Shown here in pieces: positions 33,857 to 44,236 of a stretch of 64,000 nt of DNA (position 1 is the stretch's first letter; every line of letters begins with the position of its first letter). This DNA comes from Nostoc sp. PCC 7107 (GTDB lineage: Bacteria; Cyanobacteriota; Cyanobacteriia; Cyanobacteriales; Nostocaceae). The translations under genes and the position numbers were made by a program. Where the stretch lies: assembly GCF_000316625.1 (NCBI RefSeq), contig NC_019676.1, positions 1,909,001 to 1,973,000 on the forward strand. Reading direction: 5' to 3'. A model generated the notes under the pieces. That model saw only the letters and a program-made list of their open reading frames with translations. It searched no databases and had not been told where the DNA came from.

Positions 33857-35113
33857 ATGAAGGTCAATTTGCAGCCTACCCTGAATGATTTGAATGTTGA
33901 CGCGAATCAAACCAGCAGTCAACGTCAGTTGTCTGTTTCAGTATCGGCGATCGCCGATACTCAAGACCGCAATCTTCCGATTAATTTATGTTTAATTCTC
34001 GACCATAGCGGTTCAATGAATGGTAGACCACTAGAAACTGTGAAAAAAGCCGCTAATTTGTTGGTTGACAGACTTAAACCTAGCGATCGCCTGAGTGTGG
34101 TAGTCTTCGATCACCGAGCAACGGTCTTGATCCCAAATCAGTCTGTTGAAGACCCAGAAAAAATCAAAAAGCAAATTAACCGCTTATCTGCTGATGGTGG
34201 AACGGCAATTGATGAAGGTTTGCGTTTGGCGATTGAAGAGTTAGCTAAGGGTAAAAAAGACAGAATTTCTCAAGCTTTTTTGTTAACTGATGGGGAAAAT
34301 GAACATGGTGACAATGATCGCTGCTTTAAATTTGCTCAGTTAGCAGCCGGTTATAACTTAACTTTGAATACTTTGGGCTTTGGTGACAATTGGAACCAAG
34401 ATGTTTTAGAAAGAATTGCTGATGCTGGTTTAGGGACTTTATCTTACATTCAAAAACCAGATCAAGCCATTAATGAGTTTGGGCGTTTATTCAGCCGCTT
34501 ACAAACTGTCGGCTTGACCAATGCTTATCTGTTATTTTCTTTAATGCCGAATGTTCGATTAGCAGAACTCAAGCCTGTGGCCCAAGTTTACCCAGATACT
34601 ATTGAACTTCCTCTCCAACAAGAAGCCGATGGGCGCTTTGCTATCCGCTTGGGTGATTTAATGAAAGACGCAGAACGGGTAATTTTAGCTAATATTTATC
34701 TGGGACAGTTACCTGAAGGTAAACAAGCGATCGCTAATGTCCAAATTCGCTACGATGACCCTGCTCAAAATCAAACTGGGTTATTTACTACCAATCTCCC
34801 CGTGTACGGAAATGTTACCAGGGCTTACCAACCAAATATTAATCCCCAGGTGCAGCAATCTATTTTAGCTTTAGCTAAGTATCGTCAAACCCAACTCGCA
34901 GAAGCAAAATTGCAACAAGGCGATCGCGCCGGGGCGGCAACTATGCTGCAAACTGCTGCTAAAACTGCTTTGCAAATGGGTGATACAGGTGCAGCCACAG
35001 TATTGCAAACTTCTGCCACCCAATTACAATCGGGGGGAGAGTTAAGCGAAAGCGATCGCAAGAAGACTCGCATTGTCTCAAAAACTGTGTTGCAAGATAT
35101 CCCACCGCAATGA
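33857..35113 (+). CDS. von Willebrand factor A domain protein, first copy
   Basis: A 418-residue protein, apparently cytoplasmic (no signal peptide). The vWA domain spans about residues 40-220 and has a full MIDAS: DHSGSMNG (DxSxS) at about 52-59, the threonine in GGTAIDEG, and the aspartate in LLTDGEN. The C-terminal part holds strand-rich sequence and a helical tail with LAKYRQTQLAEAKLQQGDRA. vWA proteins bind partners through a divalent metal. It overlaps the second copy by four bases (ATGA), indicating an operon of paralogues. The partner is unknown. Confidence 0.88.
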   Translation: MKVNLQPTLNDLNVDANQTSSQRQLSVSVSAIADTQDRNLPINLCLILDHSGSMNGRPLETVKKAANLLVDRLKPSDRLSVVVFDHRATVLIPNQSVEDPEKIKKQINRLSADGGTAIDEGLRLAIEELAKGKKDRISQAFLLTDGENEHGDNDRCFKFAQLAAGYNLTLNTLGFGDNWNQDVLERIADAGLGTLSYIQKPDQAINEFGRLFSRLQTVGLTNAYLLFSLMPNVRLAELKPVAQVYPDTIELPLQQEADGRFAIRLGDLMKDAERVILANIYLGQLPEGKQAIANVQIRYDDPAQNQTGLFTTNLPVYGNVTRAYQPNINPQVQQSILALAKYRQTQLAEAKLQQGDRAGAATMLQTAAKTALQMGDTGAATVLQTSATQLQSGGELSESDRKKTRIVSKTVLQDIPPQ

Positions 35114-36390
35114 AAGTTCAATTGCTCTATTCGCTCAATGATCGTAACGTTGACATGAATCAAGTTAGCAGTCAACGTCAATTAGCAATTTCGATTTCTG
35201 CGGTCGCAGATCAGGTTGAGGAGCGTTTACCGCTAAATTTATGCCTAATTCTAGATAAAAGCGGTTCGATGCACGGCAAACCGATGCAAACTGTCATTAC
35301 AGCAGTAGAGCAATTATTAGATAAATTACAGCCTGGCGATCGCATCTCGATTGTGGCTTTTTCTGGTTCTGCGGAAGTGATTGTACACAATCAAGTAATT
35401 CAAGACCCCAGTACGATTAAATTGCTGTTAAAAAACAAACTCAGCGCCAGTGGTGGAACGGCCATTGCGGAAGGTTTGAAGTTGGGAATCACAGAACTTA
35501 TGCAAGGTGCTAAAGGCGCTGTTTCCCAGGCTTTTCTCCTGACCGATGGATATGGTGAAAGCAGTTTGCGGCTGTGGAAGTGGGAAATCGGCAGCGATGA
35601 CAATAAGCGATGTTTAGAACTGGCGCAAAAGGCAGCTAAAATCAATCTGACCATCAACACCCTGGGATTTGGCAATAACTGGAACTCAGATTTACTCGAA
35701 CAAGTTGCTGATGCTGGCGGCGGGAGTTTAGCTTACATTGAGCATCCAGAACAAGTTTTAGAACGATTTAGCCGTTTGTTTAGTCGAATTAGATCAATAG
35801 GGCTAACAAATGCTTATTTGCAGTTTTCACTGGTACCGAATGTCCGACTTGCAGAACTCAAACCCATCGCCCAAGTTTCTCCAGACACAATTGAGTTACC
35901 AGTGCAGCTAGAAACTGATGGTGGCTTTACTGTGCGTTTAGGCGATTTAATGCAGGATGTAGAACGCGTAGTTTTGGTGAATCTTTATTTAGGGCGATTA
36001 CCAGAAGCAGAACAAGTAATTGGACAGATGCAAATTCGTTACGACAACCCAGCATTAAACCAAGAGTGCTTACTCACCCCTAACGTAACGATATCTGCCC
36101 ATGTCGTCAGAACATATCAACCTGACCTCAATCCCCAAGTACAGCAGTCTATTTTGACATTAGCCAAGTATCGCCAAACTCAGTTAGCTGAGATGAAACT
36201 ACAACAGGGCGATCGCCTTGGTGCAGCAACAATGTTGCAAACTGCTGCTAAAACCGCTTTACAAATTGGCGATACGAACGCAGCCAATGTTCTGCAAACA
36301 TCCGCAACTCATCTGCAATCTGGCGAACAACTCTCTTCCGCCGAACTTAAAAAAACACGAATTGTATCGAAGACATCTTTACAAGAATGA
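35110..36390 (+). CDS. von Willebrand factor A domain protein, second copy
   Basis: A 426-residue paralogue of the preceding protein, alike along its whole length. The MIDAS is intact: DKSGSMHG, GGTAIAEG and LLTDGYG. It differs by an insertion of about 13 residues after LLTDGYG (YGESSLRLWKWEIGSDDN). The C-terminal helical tail (LAKYRQTQLAEMKLQQGDRL, then GAATMLQTAAKTALQIGD) is the most conserved part between the copies. Translational coupling to the first copy through ATGA suggests the two proteins are made together and may form a heteromer. Confidence 0.88.
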   Translation: MKVQLLYSLNDRNVDMNQVSSQRQLAISISAVADQVEERLPLNLCLILDKSGSMHGKPMQTVITAVEQLLDKLQPGDRISIVAFSGSAEVIVHNQVIQDPSTIKLLLKNKLSASGGTAIAEGLKLGITELMQGAKGAVSQAFLLTDGYGESSLRLWKWEIGSDDNKRCLELAQKAAKINLTINTLGFGNNWNSDLLEQVADAGGGSLAYIEHPEQVLERFSRLFSRIRSIGLTNAYLQFSLVPNVRLAELKPIAQVSPDTIELPVQLETDGGFTVRLGDLMQDVERVVLVNLYLGRLPEAEQVIGQMQIRYDNPALNQECLLTPNVTISAHVVRTYQPDLNPQVQQSILTLAKYRQTQLAEMKLQQGDRLGAATMLQTAAKTALQIGDTNAANVLQTSATHLQSGEQLSSAELKKTRIVSKTSLQE

Positions 36391-38071: not shown

Positions 38072-38908
38072 ATGATTGATAACCTACAAACAGCAGTTGC
38101 TTGGCATGGCAAACTTAACTTAATCTACGCCGATCGCCAAAATTCCACCCAACTAATTTACAATCATCATCAAGCACCGCTAAAAGTGCAACGACCGTTT
38201 TACCCAGAAGGGGAAAAAGTCTGTCATAGCGTTATTTTACATACAGCTGGGGGAGTTGTGGGCAGCGATCGCTTATCATCTCATTTTCACCTCCAACCGA
38301 ACACCCAAGCTTTAATTACTACAGCCGCAGCTAGTAAGATATACCGCAGTAATGGCTTGCAAGCCAGACAAACCATCGATATCCAAATTGATGCGGGTGC
38401 TTGTTTAGAATTCTTACCCCAAGAAACAATTTTATTTAACGGCGCAGATTATCGCCAAGATTTGCGAGTAGAATTAGCCACGGGAGCTTGTTTTTTAGGC
38501 TGGGAAATTACCCGGTGTGGTCGCAGCGCCAGAGGAGAGAAATTTTTAGAGGGAAAATGGCGATCGCATACGGAAATTTGGCAACAAGGTGTTCCATTAT
38601 GGATAGATCGTCAATTTTTACCAGGGAACACAGATATTTTTCACAGTCCACATGGTTTATTTGGACAGCCAATTGTTGGTAGCTTGCTTTGGCTTGGTCA
38701 TCCAGTCTCCACAGAAATCATTGAACAAGTCCGTTCTCTCTTTACTAAACACTTAACAGGAGTGACACAACTAGAACATGGACTTTTGTGTAGATATCGC
38801 GGCGCTTCCACATCAGAAGTGAGAAACTGGTTTACGGCTGTTTGGCAGATACTACGGACATCTTTTTTGAGTCGGAATATCTGTATACCAAGAGTTTGGC
38901 AGATTTAA
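38072..38908 (+). CDS. ureD: urease accessory protein UreD
   Basis: UreD helps load nickel into apo-urease, in a complex with UreF and UreG. The 278-residue length is usual. Typical sequences are RPFYPEGEKVCHSVILHTAG, GGVVGSDRLSSHFHLQPNTQ, LITTAAASKIYRSNG and LEFLPQETILFNGADYRQD. It is the first gene of a ureD-ureA-ureB unit (gap of 22 bases to ureA). ureE, ureF and ureG are not in the window and must lie elsewhere. Confidence 0.92.
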   Translation: MIDNLQTAVAWHGKLNLIYADRQNSTQLIYNHHQAPLKVQRPFYPEGEKVCHSVILHTAGGVVGSDRLSSHFHLQPNTQALITTAAASKIYRSNGLQARQTIDIQIDAGACLEFLPQETILFNGADYRQDLRVELATGACFLGWEITRCGRSARGEKFLEGKWRSHTEIWQQGVPLWIDRQFLPGNTDIFHSPHGLFGQPIVGSLLWLGHPVSTEIIEQVRSLFTKHLTGVTQLEHGLLCRYRGASTSEVRNWFTAVWQILRTSFLSRNICIPRVWQI

Positions 38909-38930
38909 ATGAACTACAAAGGATGCAAAG

Positions 38931-39233
38931 ATGCAACTTACGCCGCAGGAAAAAGATAAACTATTAATTTTTACTGCTGCTTTATTAGCGGAGAGACGAA
39001 AAGAAAGGGGTTTGAAATTAAATTATCCTGAAGCAGTGGCTTATATTTCTGCGGCGATTTTAGAAGGTGCAAGAGATGGACATACTGTTGCAGAATTGAT
39101 GAGTTACGGCACAAATTTATTAACAAGAGATGAGGTGATGGAAGGTGTACCAGAAATGGTGCATGAAGTCCAAGTAGAAGCAACCTTTCCTGATGGGACT
39201 AAGTTAGTAACAGTACATAATCCTATTCGTTAA
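38931..39233 (+). CDS. ureA: urease subunit gamma
   Basis: The 100-residue gamma subunit of cytoplasmic urease, which hydrolyses urea to ammonia and carbamate. It begins [20 protein letters not shown] and contains the family sequences [34 protein letters not shown] and a C-terminal [15 protein letters not shown]. Length and sequence are fully typical. ureB follows by seven bases. Confidence 0.96.
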
Positions 39234-39240
39234 TTTAAAT

Positions 39241-39555
39241 ATGATGATTCCAGGGGAAATTATTCCAGCCGCAGGGGAAATAGAACTAAATGCAGGTCGT
39301 TCTACTGTAAAATTGCAAGTTGCAAATACAGGCGATCGCCCTATACAAATAGGTTCTCATTTTCACTTTTATGAAGTCAACAATGCCCTAAATTTTGATA
39401 GAGAACAAGCGCGGGGGATGCGTCTTGATATTCCCGCCGGGACAGCAGTCCGTTTTGAACCAGGGGATGAAAAGGAAGTTACATTAGTTCCTTTGGTTGG
39501 TAGTCGTCAAGTTTATGGGTTTAATGGCAAAATCAATGGAAATTTATCTACCTAA
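39241..39555 (+). CDS. ureB: urease subunit beta
   Basis: The 104-residue beta subunit. It begins with [19 protein letters not shown] and includes [27 protein letters not shown]-type [20 protein letters not shown] and a C-terminal [16 protein letters not shown]. The start may be the second Met. Its stop codon lies within a strong terminator hairpin. ureC, normally next, is about 2.1 kb further on, beyond two opposite-strand genes. Confidence 0.95.
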
Positions 39556-39573
39556 ATTTATTAGGTAGATAAA
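39543..39573. terminator. 13-bp perfect hairpin ending ureDAB
   Basis: Bases 39543-39555 are the exact reverse complement of 39561-39573, with a five-base loop. It includes the ureB stop codon and lies between the convergent ends of ureB and the TOPRIM-like gene. It probably ends transcription from both sides. Confidence 0.65.
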
Positions 39574-39582
39574 TAATATGTT

Positions 39583-40332
39583 CTACGTACCTGAGATTGA
39601 TTTAGCAACTATCTGTGTAGTTGCAATTAAATTTTGTGTAAAAGTAGCATATCCCTTTGGACAAAAATTTTTGATAATTTCTAAATCAATCTCAAAAGCA
39701 AGTTTCCAACGAATTTGTAGAGGGCGTTGATTGGTAACATTTTCAGATAGGTATGCTGATTTAGTGATCGCATTTTCTAAAATATCTTTTCCTCCATCTA
39801 ATTCTTTTAAATTTTCTAGATGTTCAATCTCTACACCTAAAATTCTTGATATAGTTGGGGTGTCCGCCAACAACCATATTTCAAAATTTTTAATTGCTAA
39901 ACCTCCTGCACTGCGATCAACAATTTTTTGCCCGTTAGTATCTAGATGGTAATCACGAATTTTATTTAAGGCGCGTTCTAAGTCAATTTGTCTTTGTTGA
40001 AGCTTATCATCTGCATCAACCACAATCAGGATCATATCAACTTCTTCAGGTTTCCACGCGATAATCACCTGTGCTAAATATTTTGGATCTAAAATTGAGT
40101 GTCCTACACGCCTTTTAAAAACTCGACTTTCGCTGATGGATGGATGTCTTTGGACAAAATCACAATCAGGCAAACCCAAATTATTGATTTCTCGTCTAAT
40201 TAAGGTATGCAATGCCCCTTCTTTATCTCTTTCAATAACTTTTCCACCATCTTCTGGCTTAATGTAGGGAATACTTGCTCCGAGTTCTGCCTCTCCTTCA
40301 GCAATTAGCCCAATACGAATCGCCCGATTCAT
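39583..40332 (-). CDS. TOPRIM-like (DUF4276-type) protein, second gene of AAA pair
   Basis: A 249-residue protein. IRIGLIAEGEAE near the N-terminus (about 5-16) and DMILIVVDADDK at about residues 98-109 match the two acidic motifs of TOPRIM-type nucleases (the EG..E and DxD strands). A later GGLAIKNFEIWLLAD adds to the DUF4276-like pattern. TOPRIM folds bind Mg2+ and cut or bind nucleic acid. Its start overlaps the stop of the ATPase gene (ATGA, 40329-40332), so the two are translationally coupled. By analogy with AbiL- and PARIS-type pairs, it may be the effector, with the ATPase as sensor; this is inference. Confidence 0.65.
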   Translation of the reverse strand: MNRAIRIGLIAEGEAELGASIPYIKPEDGGKVIERDKEGALHTLIRREINNLGLPDCDFVQRHPSISESRVFKRRVGHSILDPKYLAQVIIAWKPEEVDMILIVVDADDKLQQRQIDLERALNKIRDYHLDTNGQKIVDRSAGGLAIKNFEIWLLADTPTISRILGVEIEHLENLKELDGGKDILENAITKSAYLSENVTNQRPLQIRWKLAFEIDLEIIKNFCPKGYATFTQNLIATTQIVAKSISGT

Positions 40333-41459
40333 ACTGGATTACCTCCAAACACATTCGTAAACCAAAGTTCACCTAATGCTCCATCATAAGCTTCTAAGGC
40401 TTTTTGGAAGCGTTCTGAATCAACGGGTAAGGAATGTATTTGAGTTTTACCTGCGGTGTCTAACTCAACAGCACGCACTTGGTGAGGTTCTACATAATTT
40501 AGTAATACTGGAGAATGAGTTGTGATTAAAACTTGAACAGGTTTACCTGTAATACCCTCTGTAGAAATTATTTGCAATAATTCCATCATTTTGTGCAACA
40601 ACCAAGGATGAACTCCGTTTTCTATCTCTTCAAAACAAATAATACTGGGGGTATTTTCTTGATAAAGTGCGGTTAGAAATGCCAAAATTCTAAGTGTACC
40701 ATCAGATATATCAGAAGCAGGGATATGATGTTCAGAATATCTATCGATTAATTCCAGTAAAAAGGTTCTATCTTCTCTCCGCAGTAAAGAAATTCTCTGT
40801 ATATTAGGAACAAGCCGTGTCAAACGTTCCTCCAACTCATCAAAACTTTTACGATTACTCAGCAAAATATCAGCTAGAGCATCAACAACTCCCTGTCCCG
40901 TTTTATCCATCCCACTAGTTGATGGAACATTATTAGAGAGACTAATCGGGGCAAAATCGTAAATACTAACTTTTCTAATTGCCTTAGCTACAGTAAAATT
41001 TAAATAATGATTAGAAACTAAAAAATTCCTGAGTTCTTTTGTATATTGACTTCTTCCAAGAGGACTCTGAGGATAGCCTGGATCTTGACCATTAATAGTC
41101 ACTATTCGTTGAGGATAATCAAGACGAACTGAAATGAATGAAATCGATTCTTGGCTTTCTATATTTTGACAAGAAATAACCTCAAATAAAAGATAATCTT
41201 GCTTACCCTGCCAGAATTTTGATTGAATGTTTTGATAGTTAGGATTTACAGTTATTAAAGATTGAGCAAAAAAAGATATTGCCTCTGAAACACTAGTATT
41301 AATTACTAACCTTTGGAGAAAGTCAGATAATACATATAAAGCTTCACAAATATTTGACTTACCAGAACCATTAGGGCCAATAAATACAGTTAATGGTTCT
41401 AAATCAACTTCATTATCAAACAGGCTCTTGTAGTGCTGAATTCGCAGTTTAGATAACAT
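40329..41459 (-). CDS. AAA (ABC/SMC-type) ATPase, first gene of pair
   Basis: A 376-residue ATPase of the AAA_15/AAA_21 (OLD-like, SMC-related) kind. It begins MLSKLRIQHYKSLFDNEVDL and has Walker A GPNGSGKSN at about residues 28-36, a signature-like SDGTLRILAFLTALY at about 256-270, Walker B IICFEEIENGVHP and a switch histidine in LITTHSPVLLNY. No nuclease domain is fused to it; that function may be in the downstream TOPRIM-like protein. The pair lies on the opposite strand to urease genes, between ureB and ureC. Confidence 0.85.
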   Translation of the reverse strand: MLSKLRIQHYKSLFDNEVDLEPLTVFIGPNGSGKSNICEALYVLSDFLQRLVINTSVSEAISFFAQSLITVNPNYQNIQSKFWQGKQDYLLFEVISCQNIESQESISFISVRLDYPQRIVTINGQDPGYPQSPLGRSQYTKELRNFLVSNHYLNFTVAKAIRKVSIYDFAPISLSNNVPSTSGMDKTGQGVVDALADILLSNRKSFDELEERLTRLVPNIQRISLLRREDRTFLLELIDRYSEHHIPASDISDGTLRILAFLTALYQENTPSIICFEEIENGVHPWLLHKMMELLQIISTEGITGKPVQVLITTHSPVLLNYVEPHQVRAVELDTAGKTQIHSLPVDSERFQKALEAYDGALGELWFTNVFGGNPV

Positions 41460-41671
41460 TTTACCTTGGTTTTATATTCCTCTGTTTGCTTAAGATAATT
41501 CTATAGTTTAGTCATTTATAACTTTGGTTTCACCTACTCTAAAATTTTATTTACATACACTGACCACTACTAAAAAATTATAACTAAATTATAAATTTAT
41601 ACAAAAATTACCCCTGCTCTTGCCAAAATAGCTCAAAAATAATGAAAGCAAAATAGTTATAAAAGTATATT
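41460..41671. promoter_or_regulatory. divergent spacer, presumed promoter for ureC and the ATPase
   Basis: A 212-base AT-rich spacer. As ureC is cut off from ureDAB by the inserted pair and a terminator, its promoter must be here. TATAAA-like boxes are too many to choose one. No GTA-N8-TAC (NtcA) site was seen. Confidence 0.4.
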
Positions 41672-43378
41672 ATGCCTTACAGAATCTCTCGCCAAGCATA
41701 CGCAGAAACATACGGGCCAACAGTAGGCGATCGCATCCGTCTCGCTGATACAGAATTATTTATCGAAGTCGAACAAGACTTTACTACCTACGGCGATGAA
41801 GTAAAATTTGGCGGTGGTAAAGTTATTCGGGATGGCATGGGACAATCCCCCATTTCTAACGCCGATGGCGCTGTAGATTTAGTCATTACCAATGCTTTGA
41901 TTCTTGATTGGTGGGGAGTTGTCAAAGCAGACATCGGTATTAAAGATGGCAAGATATTTAAAATCGGGAAAGCGGGTAATCCATATATTCAAGACAATGT
42001 AGATATTATTATTGGCCCTGGAACCGAAGCCTTAGCCGGGGAAGGAATGATTCTCACCGCTGGCGGGATTGATAGCCATATACATTTTATTTGTCCCCAA
42101 CAAATTGAAGTTGCGATCGCCTCTGGAATCACAACGATGATTGGTGGCGGAACTGGGCCTGCTACGGGAACTAACGCCACTACCTGCACTCCCGGCCCTT
42201 GGAACATTTACCGGATGTTACAAGCGGCCGATGCTTTTCCTGTCAACTTAGGTTTTCTGGGTAAAGGTAATGCTAGTCAACCCCAAGCACTAGCAGAACA
42301 AGTCCAAGCAGGTGCAATTGGTTTAAAGCTGCATGAAGACTGGGGAACAACTCCCGCGACGATTGATACTTGTTTGAGTGTGGCTGATGAGTACGATGTG
42401 CAAGTAGCCATCCACACCGATACTCTCAACGAAGCTGGGTTTGTGGAAGATACGATCGCCGCCTTTAAAAACCGTACCATTCACACATACCACACTGAAG
42501 GCGCAGGGGGTGGACACGCACCAGATATTATTAAAGTCTGCGGTCAAGCCAATGTTTTACCGTCTTCTACCAATCCTACCCGTCCCTACACCCTCAACAC
42601 CTTAGACGAACACCTAGATATGTTGATGGTATGTCATCATCTCGACCCAGCGATTCCCGAAGATGTCGCTTTTGCAGAGTCTCGGATACGCCGAGAAACC
42701 ATCGCCGCTGAAGATATTTTGCATGATTTAGGGGCGTTTAGTATGATTTCTTCTGACTCCCAAGCAATGGGGAGAGTGGGTGAGGTGATAATTCGCACAT
42801 GGCAAACAGCCCACAAAATGAAAGTACAACGGGGAAGTCTGGAAGGAGATAGTCAAGCTGACAATTTACGCGCCAAAAGATATGTTGCCAAGTACACCAT
42901 TAACCCAGCGATTACGCATGGTATTGCCGATTTTGTCGGTTCAGTGGAAGCCGGAAAACTCGCAGACTTATGTTTATGGCGACCTGCGTTTTTTGGTGTC
43001 AAACCAGAGATAGTAATTAAAGGTGGAATGATCGCTTGGGCGCAAATGGGTGATGCTAACGCCAGTATTCCTACACCGCAACCAGTACATACAAGGCCGA
43101 TGTTTGGTAGTTTTGCTGGTGCTAGACATGCTACATCCTTCACTTTTGTTTCTCAAGCAGCCTTAGAAAGAGAAATCCCTAGTCAGTTACAATTGCAAAA
43201 ACCAGCTGTTGCTGTTACAGGAACACGTCAGTTGAGTAAAGGCGACTTGAAACTCAATGATGCGTTACCGCAAATAGAGGTAGATGCTGAAACTTACGAA
43301 GTGAGGGCAGACGGGGAATTGCTGACTTGTGAACCTGCAACAGTTTTACCAATGGCGCAGCGTTACTTTCTATTTTGA
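41672..43378 (+). CDS. ureC: urease subunit alpha
   Basis: The 568-residue catalytic subunit, which hydrolyses urea at a di-nickel centre. It begins [20 protein letters not shown]. Nickel and catalytic motifs are all present: [26 protein letters not shown] with the carbamylated lysine, [29 protein letters not shown], and the flap [19 protein letters not shown] region. It is intact and full length, so urease should be functional despite the split locus. A different start is not needed. Confidence 0.96.
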
Positions 43379-43549: not shown

Positions 43550-44236
43550 TTACTTGGAAGGAGATACAGAACCTGGTTGAATGCTACTGTCAGGTGTACC
43601 GCTAGAATCTGGTGCGGGAGTTACACTACCAGGAGTTGTGGAATCTGGTGCTGTTGTGCTGCCTGGGGCTGGCGTAATTTGATTAGGAATTGTGGAATCT
43701 GGTGCTGTTGTGCTACCAGGAGTTGTGGAATCTGGTGCTGGAGTTAAACTACCAGGAGTTGTAGAATCTGGTGCTGGAGTTAAACTACCAGGAGTTGTAG
43801 AATCTGGTGTAGTTGTGCTACCTGGGGCTGGTGTAATTTGATTCGGAGTTGTGGAATCTGGTAAAGTTGTGCCGCCTGGGGCTGGTGTTGTATTGGTAGG
43901 ATTGGTAGTATCTGGTACTGTAGTACTGTCGGGAGTCGATTCAGGTGCGGTTGTGCTGTCGGGTGTTGTACTTTCAGAAGGCTGTGTTTCGGGTACAGTG
44001 GTAGTACCGGAAGAAGTTGGAGTGAGTGGTTGACCGTTGGGACAACGAGAATTTAAGGGGAAACGTTCACACAGAATTTTTAACCCTTCTGGTGACAACT
44101 CAATTTCCGTTGGTGAACTAGTGGATGTGCTACTGGATTGAGCAATTGGGGAGTTACTGGATTGAGCAACTGCAACGTTAGCACTGAAAGCCAAAGTCAA
44201 AGCTGTACCAATCAACGACAGAGATTTTCCCTTCAT
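43550..44236 (-). CDS. secreted Pro/Thr/Ser-rich repeat protein
   Basis: A 228-residue exported protein. A signal peptide ends near residue 24 (VAVAQSS). A short conserved part follows (LSPEGLKILCERFPLNSRCP, about 46-65), with two cysteines. The remaining about 150 residues are imperfect repeats of a TTPGS-TPAPDS type unit (about 12 residues; for example DSTTPGSLTPAP repeated). Such regions are usually extended and surface-exposed. The repeat tract is probably variable in length between strains. Function unknown. Confidence 0.7.
   Translation of the reverse strand: MKGKSLSLIGTALTLAFSANVAVAQSSNSPIAQSSSTSTSSPTEIELSPEGLKILCERFPLNSRCPNGQPLTPTSSGTTTVPETQPSESTTPDSTTAPESTPDSTTVPDTTNPTNTTPAPGGTTLPDSTTPNQITPAPGSTTTPDSTTPGSLTPAPDSTTPGSLTPAPDSTTPGSTTAPDSTIPNQITPAPGSTTAPDSTTPGSVTPAPDSSGTPDSSIQPGSVSPSK

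Follow-up and report, generated by a model that had tools for sequence, protein, structure and literature searches.

A split, OLD-like pair of ATPase and TOPRIM-like genes, a candidate anti-phage module, exchanged as a cassette between ureB and ureC of cyanobacteria

Introduction

In Nostoc sp. PCC 7107 the urease genes ureD, ureA and ureB are separated from ureC, which lies on the same strand, by two genes of opposite orientation (called A and B for simplicity), and the locus raises the question of what this gene pair is and how it came to lie inside the operon of one enzyme. We investigated it in a stretch of 64,000 nucleotides (NC_019676.1, positions 1,909,001 to 1,973,000; called the window throughout), in which A encodes an ABC ATPase and B a TOPRIM-like protein (Table 1). 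A first-pass annotation of the same DNA had read the pair as a possible mobile phage-defence module, and the gene order that it described was confirmed by the coordinates of the open reading frames (ORFs) and, for the four ure genes, by Pfam. A passage of one report states that an unknown gene separates ureDAB from ureC in PCC 7120 (PMC6737895).

Comparison of the available copies shows that close relatives of the pair moved between genera as one cassette replacing the gap between ureB and ureC, without the flanking urease genes. Our best explanation, held with moderate confidence, is that A and B form a split OLD-like module of the candidate type HEC-01, exchanged in this gap as a cassette and presumed to provide defence by abortive infection.

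Table 1. Features of the urease locus, in coordinates of the window.
Feature	Position	Strand	Basis or remark
ureD (urease accessory)	38072..38908	+	Pfam UreD 3e-62
ureA (gamma subunit)	38931..39233	+	Pfam Urease_gamma 2e-48
ureB (beta subunit)	39241..39555	+	Pfam Urease_beta 4e-48
14-bp inverted repeat across the ureB stop codon	39542..39574		between convergent ureB and B
B, 249-aa OLD-like TOPRIM protein, predicted two-metal nuclease	39583..40332	-	
A, 376-aa ABC ATPase	40329..41459	-	
Divergent intergenic region, 212 bp, part of the cassette	41460..41671		blastn and alignment
ureC (alpha subunit), intact	41672..43378	+	Pfam; ureC tree

Results

Transfer of the pair between genera

The pair lies between ureB and ureC in the window, Fischerella muscicola, Nostoc NMS7, Hassallia byssoidea and Cyanomargarita calcarea; in a sixth genus (Calothrix elsteri) it adjoins ureC at a contig end, the ureC side alone being covered. 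Among the first four carriers the synonymous divergence (dS) of A and B was below that of the urease genes in every comparison (Table 2), with the limits that ureB is short and that dS approaches saturation above about 1. The copies of Calothrix and Cyanomargarita are older (dS 0.46-0.94 against 0.95-2.17 for ureC). A quick ureC tree (first 600 bp, 101 rows) followed genus: the window, NMS7, Hassallia and Fischerella each had rows of their own genus as nearest neighbours, genus g1 fell on one side of a branch with a support of 78, and the supports for g22 and g5 were 97 and 99. NMS7 was found in a supported set of three rows of genus g7, the whole of g7 needing two changes.

Table 2. Synonymous divergence (dS) of A and B and of the flanking urease genes.
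Pair compared	A	B	ureC	ureB
Window-Fischerella	0.46	0.30	1.26	1.45
Window-NMS7	0.27	0.27	1.07	1.33
Window-Hassallia	0.26	0.26	1.87	0.68
Fischerella-NMS7	0.35	0.22	0.98	0.71
Fischerella-Hassallia	0.35	0.27	1.25	1.37
NMS7-Hassallia	0.07	0.05	0.84	1.20

As a control we counted, for each gene found in the gap, the cross-genus genome pairs in which its dS was less than half that of ureC; the window was excluded, and the pairs are not independent of each other. No such pair was seen for the genes of DUF1349 (0/162), Coq4 (0/45) and cupin (0/5) proteins, against 31/109 for GxxExxY, 20/32 for the antitoxin-like, 10/14 for the protease-like genes, 3/6 for A and 4/6 for B. Two small clusters gave 0/2 (cl14) and 1/1 (cl18), and three (cl19, cl20, cl26) had no cross-genus pair. 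Because of this control we conclude that the gap holds old residents as well as transferred genes, the A-B pair being among the latter; DUF1349, Coq4 and cupin genes were rejected as mobile cargo, their dS showing vertical descent. The result was less clear for copies of the pair flanked by the genes of an ABC-F-type ATPase and of iPGM, with dS below half in 6/21 comparisons for A and 6/21 for B.

The sharpest case is that of NMS7 and Hassallia: identity is 96.6% over a tract of 2,132 alignment columns, against 77.1% for the ureB sequence that precedes the tract and 84.1% for the sequence that follows. One edge of the tract falls within the last ~24 bp of ureB and the other ~14 bp short of the ureC ATG, and by this comparison the moved unit takes in the last ureB codons; the UreB tail GHLDT is present in NMS7 and Hassallia and in none of their congeners among the fetched loci described below. 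In Nostoc G593, whose ureC is close to that of NMS7, the gap measures 51 bp. The 212-bp region between A and ureC showed 70-75% blastn identity to carriers of the pair in this gap only, among the loci compared. Sliding identity along ureDAB and ureC of the window showed no donor-like flanks: the closest congener stood above each carrier in each segment, and carriers tied with more distant congeners in places.

Vertical inheritance under an unusual constraint on synonymous sites, with no transfer, would also give low dS, and the copies in the gap do share their orientation; a single origin is possible. We strongly disfavour this as very improbable, since NMS7 and Hassallia differ in 3.4% of the tract columns, non-coding ones included, against 22.9% before and 15.9% after it, and since the fetched congeners hold other contents in the gap. 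The low dS of A and B, a ureC that follows genus, the sharp tract and vertical residents without a dS deficit therefore argue together for exchange of the whole gap as a cassette inside the operon.

Contents of the ureB-ureC gap and the route of entry

Of the matches to ureB (190 genomes) and ureC (199 genomes), 152 and 151 rows, respectively, were used for the gap lengths; 135 genomes had both, and after removal of 7 (genes on different contigs or strands, or widely separated) 128 paired genomes of the family were left, with gaps of <150 bp in 45, 150-300 bp in 3 and >300 bp in 80. From the 127 paired genomes other than the window's, 100 loci (L103-L202) were fetched, i.e. 79/79 with gaps over 300 bp and a hand-picked 21/48 with gaps under 300 bp. 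The spacer came out too short in 10/100 loci (the ureB stop was overshot), where some gap ORFs were possibly lost; the length counts for the 128 genomes are unaffected. In the 89 measurable loci of the 100, the ureA-ureB spacer exceeded 300 bp in 14 and the ureD-ureA spacer in 0, although a long ureD-ureA gap could escape because the fetched stretches start 1.9 kb upstream of ureB.

Among gap ORFs of at least 60 aa in the fetched genomes, DUF1349 (25), PDDEXK_3/GxxExxY (16), Coq4 (12), antitoxin-like (10) and mCpol (2) genes were counted; names rest on one Pfam-scanned representative each, and 'antitoxin-like' and 'protease-like' were assigned by eye to genes with no Pfam match. The two genes of mCpol (minimal CRISPR polymerase) are an ORF of 467 aa in L181 (genome G022) and a fragmentary one of 104 aa in L154 (G585). 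No title among the literature matches listed points to the ureB-ureC gap as a hotspot.

The UreB tails tended to go with the contents of the gap. In genus g7, NGSL occurred with DUF1349 (17/17), NGNL with a compact gap (5/5) and LPLI with Coq4 (4/4), NGNL accompanying other contents too; across all genera NGSL went with DUF1349 in 20/25, and Coq4 was found with five tails in 12 genomes. This tendency hints that the exchange unit takes in the ureB end.

Only A and B were present among ORFs of at least 90 aa between ureB and ureC of the window, and no recombinase of its own was found for the cassette there. No long terminal repeats were found, and a repeat pair (I3, 19 nt, 79%) looks like chance; no RNA family was found in the gap, and the right-hand edge of the tract showed no obvious homology. 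Because the cassette carries no recombinase, it would enter by recombination for which the conserved 3' end of ureB and a region near the start of ureC serve as anchors; recombination within the conserved end of ureB best accounts for the use of this slot. Cyanomargarita has, on the side of the pair that faces ureB, a frame-broken 160-bp duplicate of the ureC 5' end (L069:12003-12162; 89% identity to the intact gene), as if a piece with the pair and a ureC start had recombined next to the resident copy. The broader proposal, namely that the ureB-ureC junction of this cyanobacterial family is a recombinase-free docking site whose whole contents, candidate defence modules and the last ureB codons included, swap between genera by homologous recombination at the conserved end of ureB and the start of ureC, we put forward tentatively, as possible rather than probable.

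A is a complete ABC ATPase and B a predicted OLD-like TOPRIM protein

Motifs and predicted fold indicate that A is a complete ABC ATPase of the SMC/OLD/PtuA type: Walker A (residues 28-36), the signature (252-257), Walker B with its glutamates (273-278) and the H-loop (313-316) are conserved in the alignment. Pfam returned AAA_21 (2e-32), and the top match in PADLOC-DB 2.0.0 was HEC-01A (Hma-embedded candidate 1; 1.1e-46, judged by E-value alone, PADLOC cut-offs not being shown). B is predicted to have an OLD-like TOPRIM fold with a conserved acidic set of the two-metal type (E12, E16, D106, D108, E151 and K182, chosen by conservation), in which E12, D106 and D108, the TOPRIM motifs E and DxD, are invariant in 33 rows. 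In the fold comparison of the B model (predicted local distance difference test, 87) OLD C-terminal domains ranked top (Z 7.1-7.6), the closest solved fold being the C-terminal region of class 2 OLD; Foldseek of B, taken alone, did not settle the fold, and a B profile run against the sequences of solved structures gave chance-like matches only (best E 0.012). All 8/8 PADLOC matches of B were to HEC-01B (best 1.1e-06, weak, residues 39-242).

The strings GPNGSGKSN, EGEAE and VVDADDK singled out by the first-pass annotation were all found, and its assignment of an ABC ATPase with a TOPRIM-like partner agrees with Pfam, PADLOC and the predicted folds of both proteins. The label DUF4276 for the effector had to be given up: B scores 14.8 bits against PF14103, whose gathering cut-off is 30.2. 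Both genes are under purifying selection. They overlap by 4 bp, the ATGA holding the end of A and the start of B as the annotation had it, and because of this overlap they are probably cotranscribed.

Distribution of the pair and alternative roles

B was found in 15/388 genomes of the class, the own genome counted, and at 26 loci of genome contigs, one of them in Chloroflexota. Outside the urease genes, seven intact copies lie between the ABC-F-type and iPGM genes (L049, L050, L052, L054, L055, L057, L071), and the remaining copies have further contexts elsewhere. Eight copies are degraded (L062, L064, L066, L067, L072, L073, L074, L099), with no ure gene seen in their stretches; L072 and L099 share the ABC-F/iPGM interval and L064 adjoins the ABC-F gene. 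Some of these loci are metagenome-assembled genomes, in which sequencing error is possible. The patchy occurrence in several contexts bears out a module that comes and goes, and the pair is not bound to the place between ureB and ureC.

These contexts bear on three other roles. That the pair lies between ureB and ureC, or adjoins ureC, in six genera might suggest a urease accessory acting on urea metabolism, which we find barely credible for genes on the opposite strand, with urease genes common without the pair and other copies elsewhere. A DNA-repair or housekeeping ATPase-nuclease of the Rad50/SMC kind, with no defence role, would agree with the fold comparison of A, where SMC and Rad50 heads fit as well as PtuA, and with copies adjoining housekeeping genes, as at the seven ABC-F/iPGM loci; it is quite improbable for a pair that is repeatedly broken and is present, judged by B, in 0/10 congeners and 11/120 relatives (window genome counted), i.e. 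absent from 109. A selfish, toxin-antitoxin-like addiction pair would be patchy, transferred and degraded as observed at the eight loci: A would restrain B, losing A first would be harmful, and defence would be secondary or absent. In L066 and L067 A is full length and B internally deleted or truncated, which fits such a pair. We regard addiction as unlikely, since the named families nearest to A and B are defence pairs, known or candidate, and the two views overlap.

Several findings weigh against the explanation that we prefer, a HEC-01-type defence module exchanged as a cassette. One tblastn scan each of phage and plasmid records gave no B relative, and one scan of IMG/VR with two short peptide patterns gave no contig with a B relative. 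Among 149/154 selected ORFs near 17 non-urease copies (five long ORFs left out), recurrent Pfam neighbours were largely housekeeping (iPGM 7, ABC-F type 7, Usp 6, Na/H exchanger 5, in the 25 commonest of 165 families, which also hold Uma2 7, DUF29 5 and RelE 2). Eight fetched genomes that lack the pair, from the same genera or others, also have UreB tails LDS or LDT, and the fold match of B is middling; these last two findings lower our confidence in both the preferred explanation and the docking site. The commonest PADLOC models near the same copies (mad8 8, mad3 7, PDC-S03 5, in the 25 commonest of 125 families) are presumably cross-matches to ABC and transport proteins, and DpdF, LeoA, PD-T4-6, PsyrT and reverse-transcriptase models matched single members.

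The urease genes and neighbouring features

As had been stated, the urease subunits are intact, every frame of the locus being unbroken, and ureC begins ~2.1 kb past ureB (2,116 bp from stop to start). The hairpin noted at the ureB end exists, with arms of 14 bp (39542-39555 and 39561-39574) rather than 13; its energy is -16.3 kcal/mol (z -5.3 against shuffles, 1/200 of which were equally good). An own promoter for ureC was not borne out: the 4 promoter-like matches are weak and compare with 1.5 +/- 1.4 in shuffles.

Upstream (33857-36390) lie two neighbouring similar genes of ~420 aa each, an apparent tandem duplication, whose DxSxS-like motif looks by eye to be of the von Willebrand A type. 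A protein with many Ser/Thr/Pro near-repeats is encoded on the minus strand adjoining ureC (43550-44236).

Discussion

If the pair works like PARIS, OLD and Septu, A would sense an infection-related trigger and hold or control B; triggered B would cut nucleic acid, either DNA, as OLD does, or tRNA, as AriB does, and this cutting would arrest the phage, probably by abortive infection. Islands, prophages and plasmids are the usual places in which to track defence modules. In the present case a candidate module travels as a 2.1-kb replacement of the gap between core urease genes and carries no recombinase that would betray the movement, and its boundaries are sharp enough for the route of entry to be tested. 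As a compact, intact and naturally exchanged ATPase-TOPRIM pair it offers a test case for HEC-01 as defence and for DNA versus tRNA as the target.

The kinship to known and candidate defence pairs that had been proposed is supported by the PADLOC matches of A and B, and the epithet 'uncharacterised' needs qualification, a pairing of this kind being already in PADLOC as the candidate HEC-01. The likeness to HEC-01 lies in A matching HEC-01A and the adjacent B HEC-01B, the sole, if weak, name among its matches; we propose A and B as a split OLD-like candidate anti-phage pair of this type, judged from sequence and models. A passage of PMC12724379 gives HEC-01 only as a name in the system list of Desulfovibrio piger, and a passage of PMC12988326 describes several HECs as active, HEC-06 among them, without naming HEC-01. 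No study of the A-B pair came up in literature searches under DUF4276, HEC-01 and Hma-embedded, and PMC8565338 contains none of the terms sought.

PARIS likewise has its ATPase (AriA) and TOPRIM protein (AriB) in separate genes, according to a passage of PMC10568477, and A matches AriA too (3.1e-35). Unlike in PARIS, AriA is not the top match of A, B has no AriB match at E <= 1 (the presence of AriB models in the library being unchecked), and AriB is not listed in the fold comparison. The OLD nucleases of class 1 and class 2, the latter being GajA of Gabija, share the ABC ATPase and TOPRIM combination in a single chain, whereas A and B are split over two overlapping ORFs; in contrast to Gabija, no helicase gene lies between ureB and ureC. 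B differs from AbiLii of the AbiL system (AbiLi/AbiLii) in having no match to it at E <= 1 (AbiLii models in the library likewise unchecked), and from the partner of PtuA in Septu and retrons in having no HNH match in Pfam.

Core-gene-bounded integration hotspots carry variable cargo between fixed housekeeping genes. The ureB-ureC gap resembles them in this respect and differs in lying inside the operon of one enzyme's subunits and in an exchanged tract that enters the last ureB codons. The A-B pair thus joins a candidate defence type as a new member, and what is unusual about it is the way in which it is exchanged inside an operon; if the docking site is real, a housekeeping operon serves as the address at which immune cargo is swapped.

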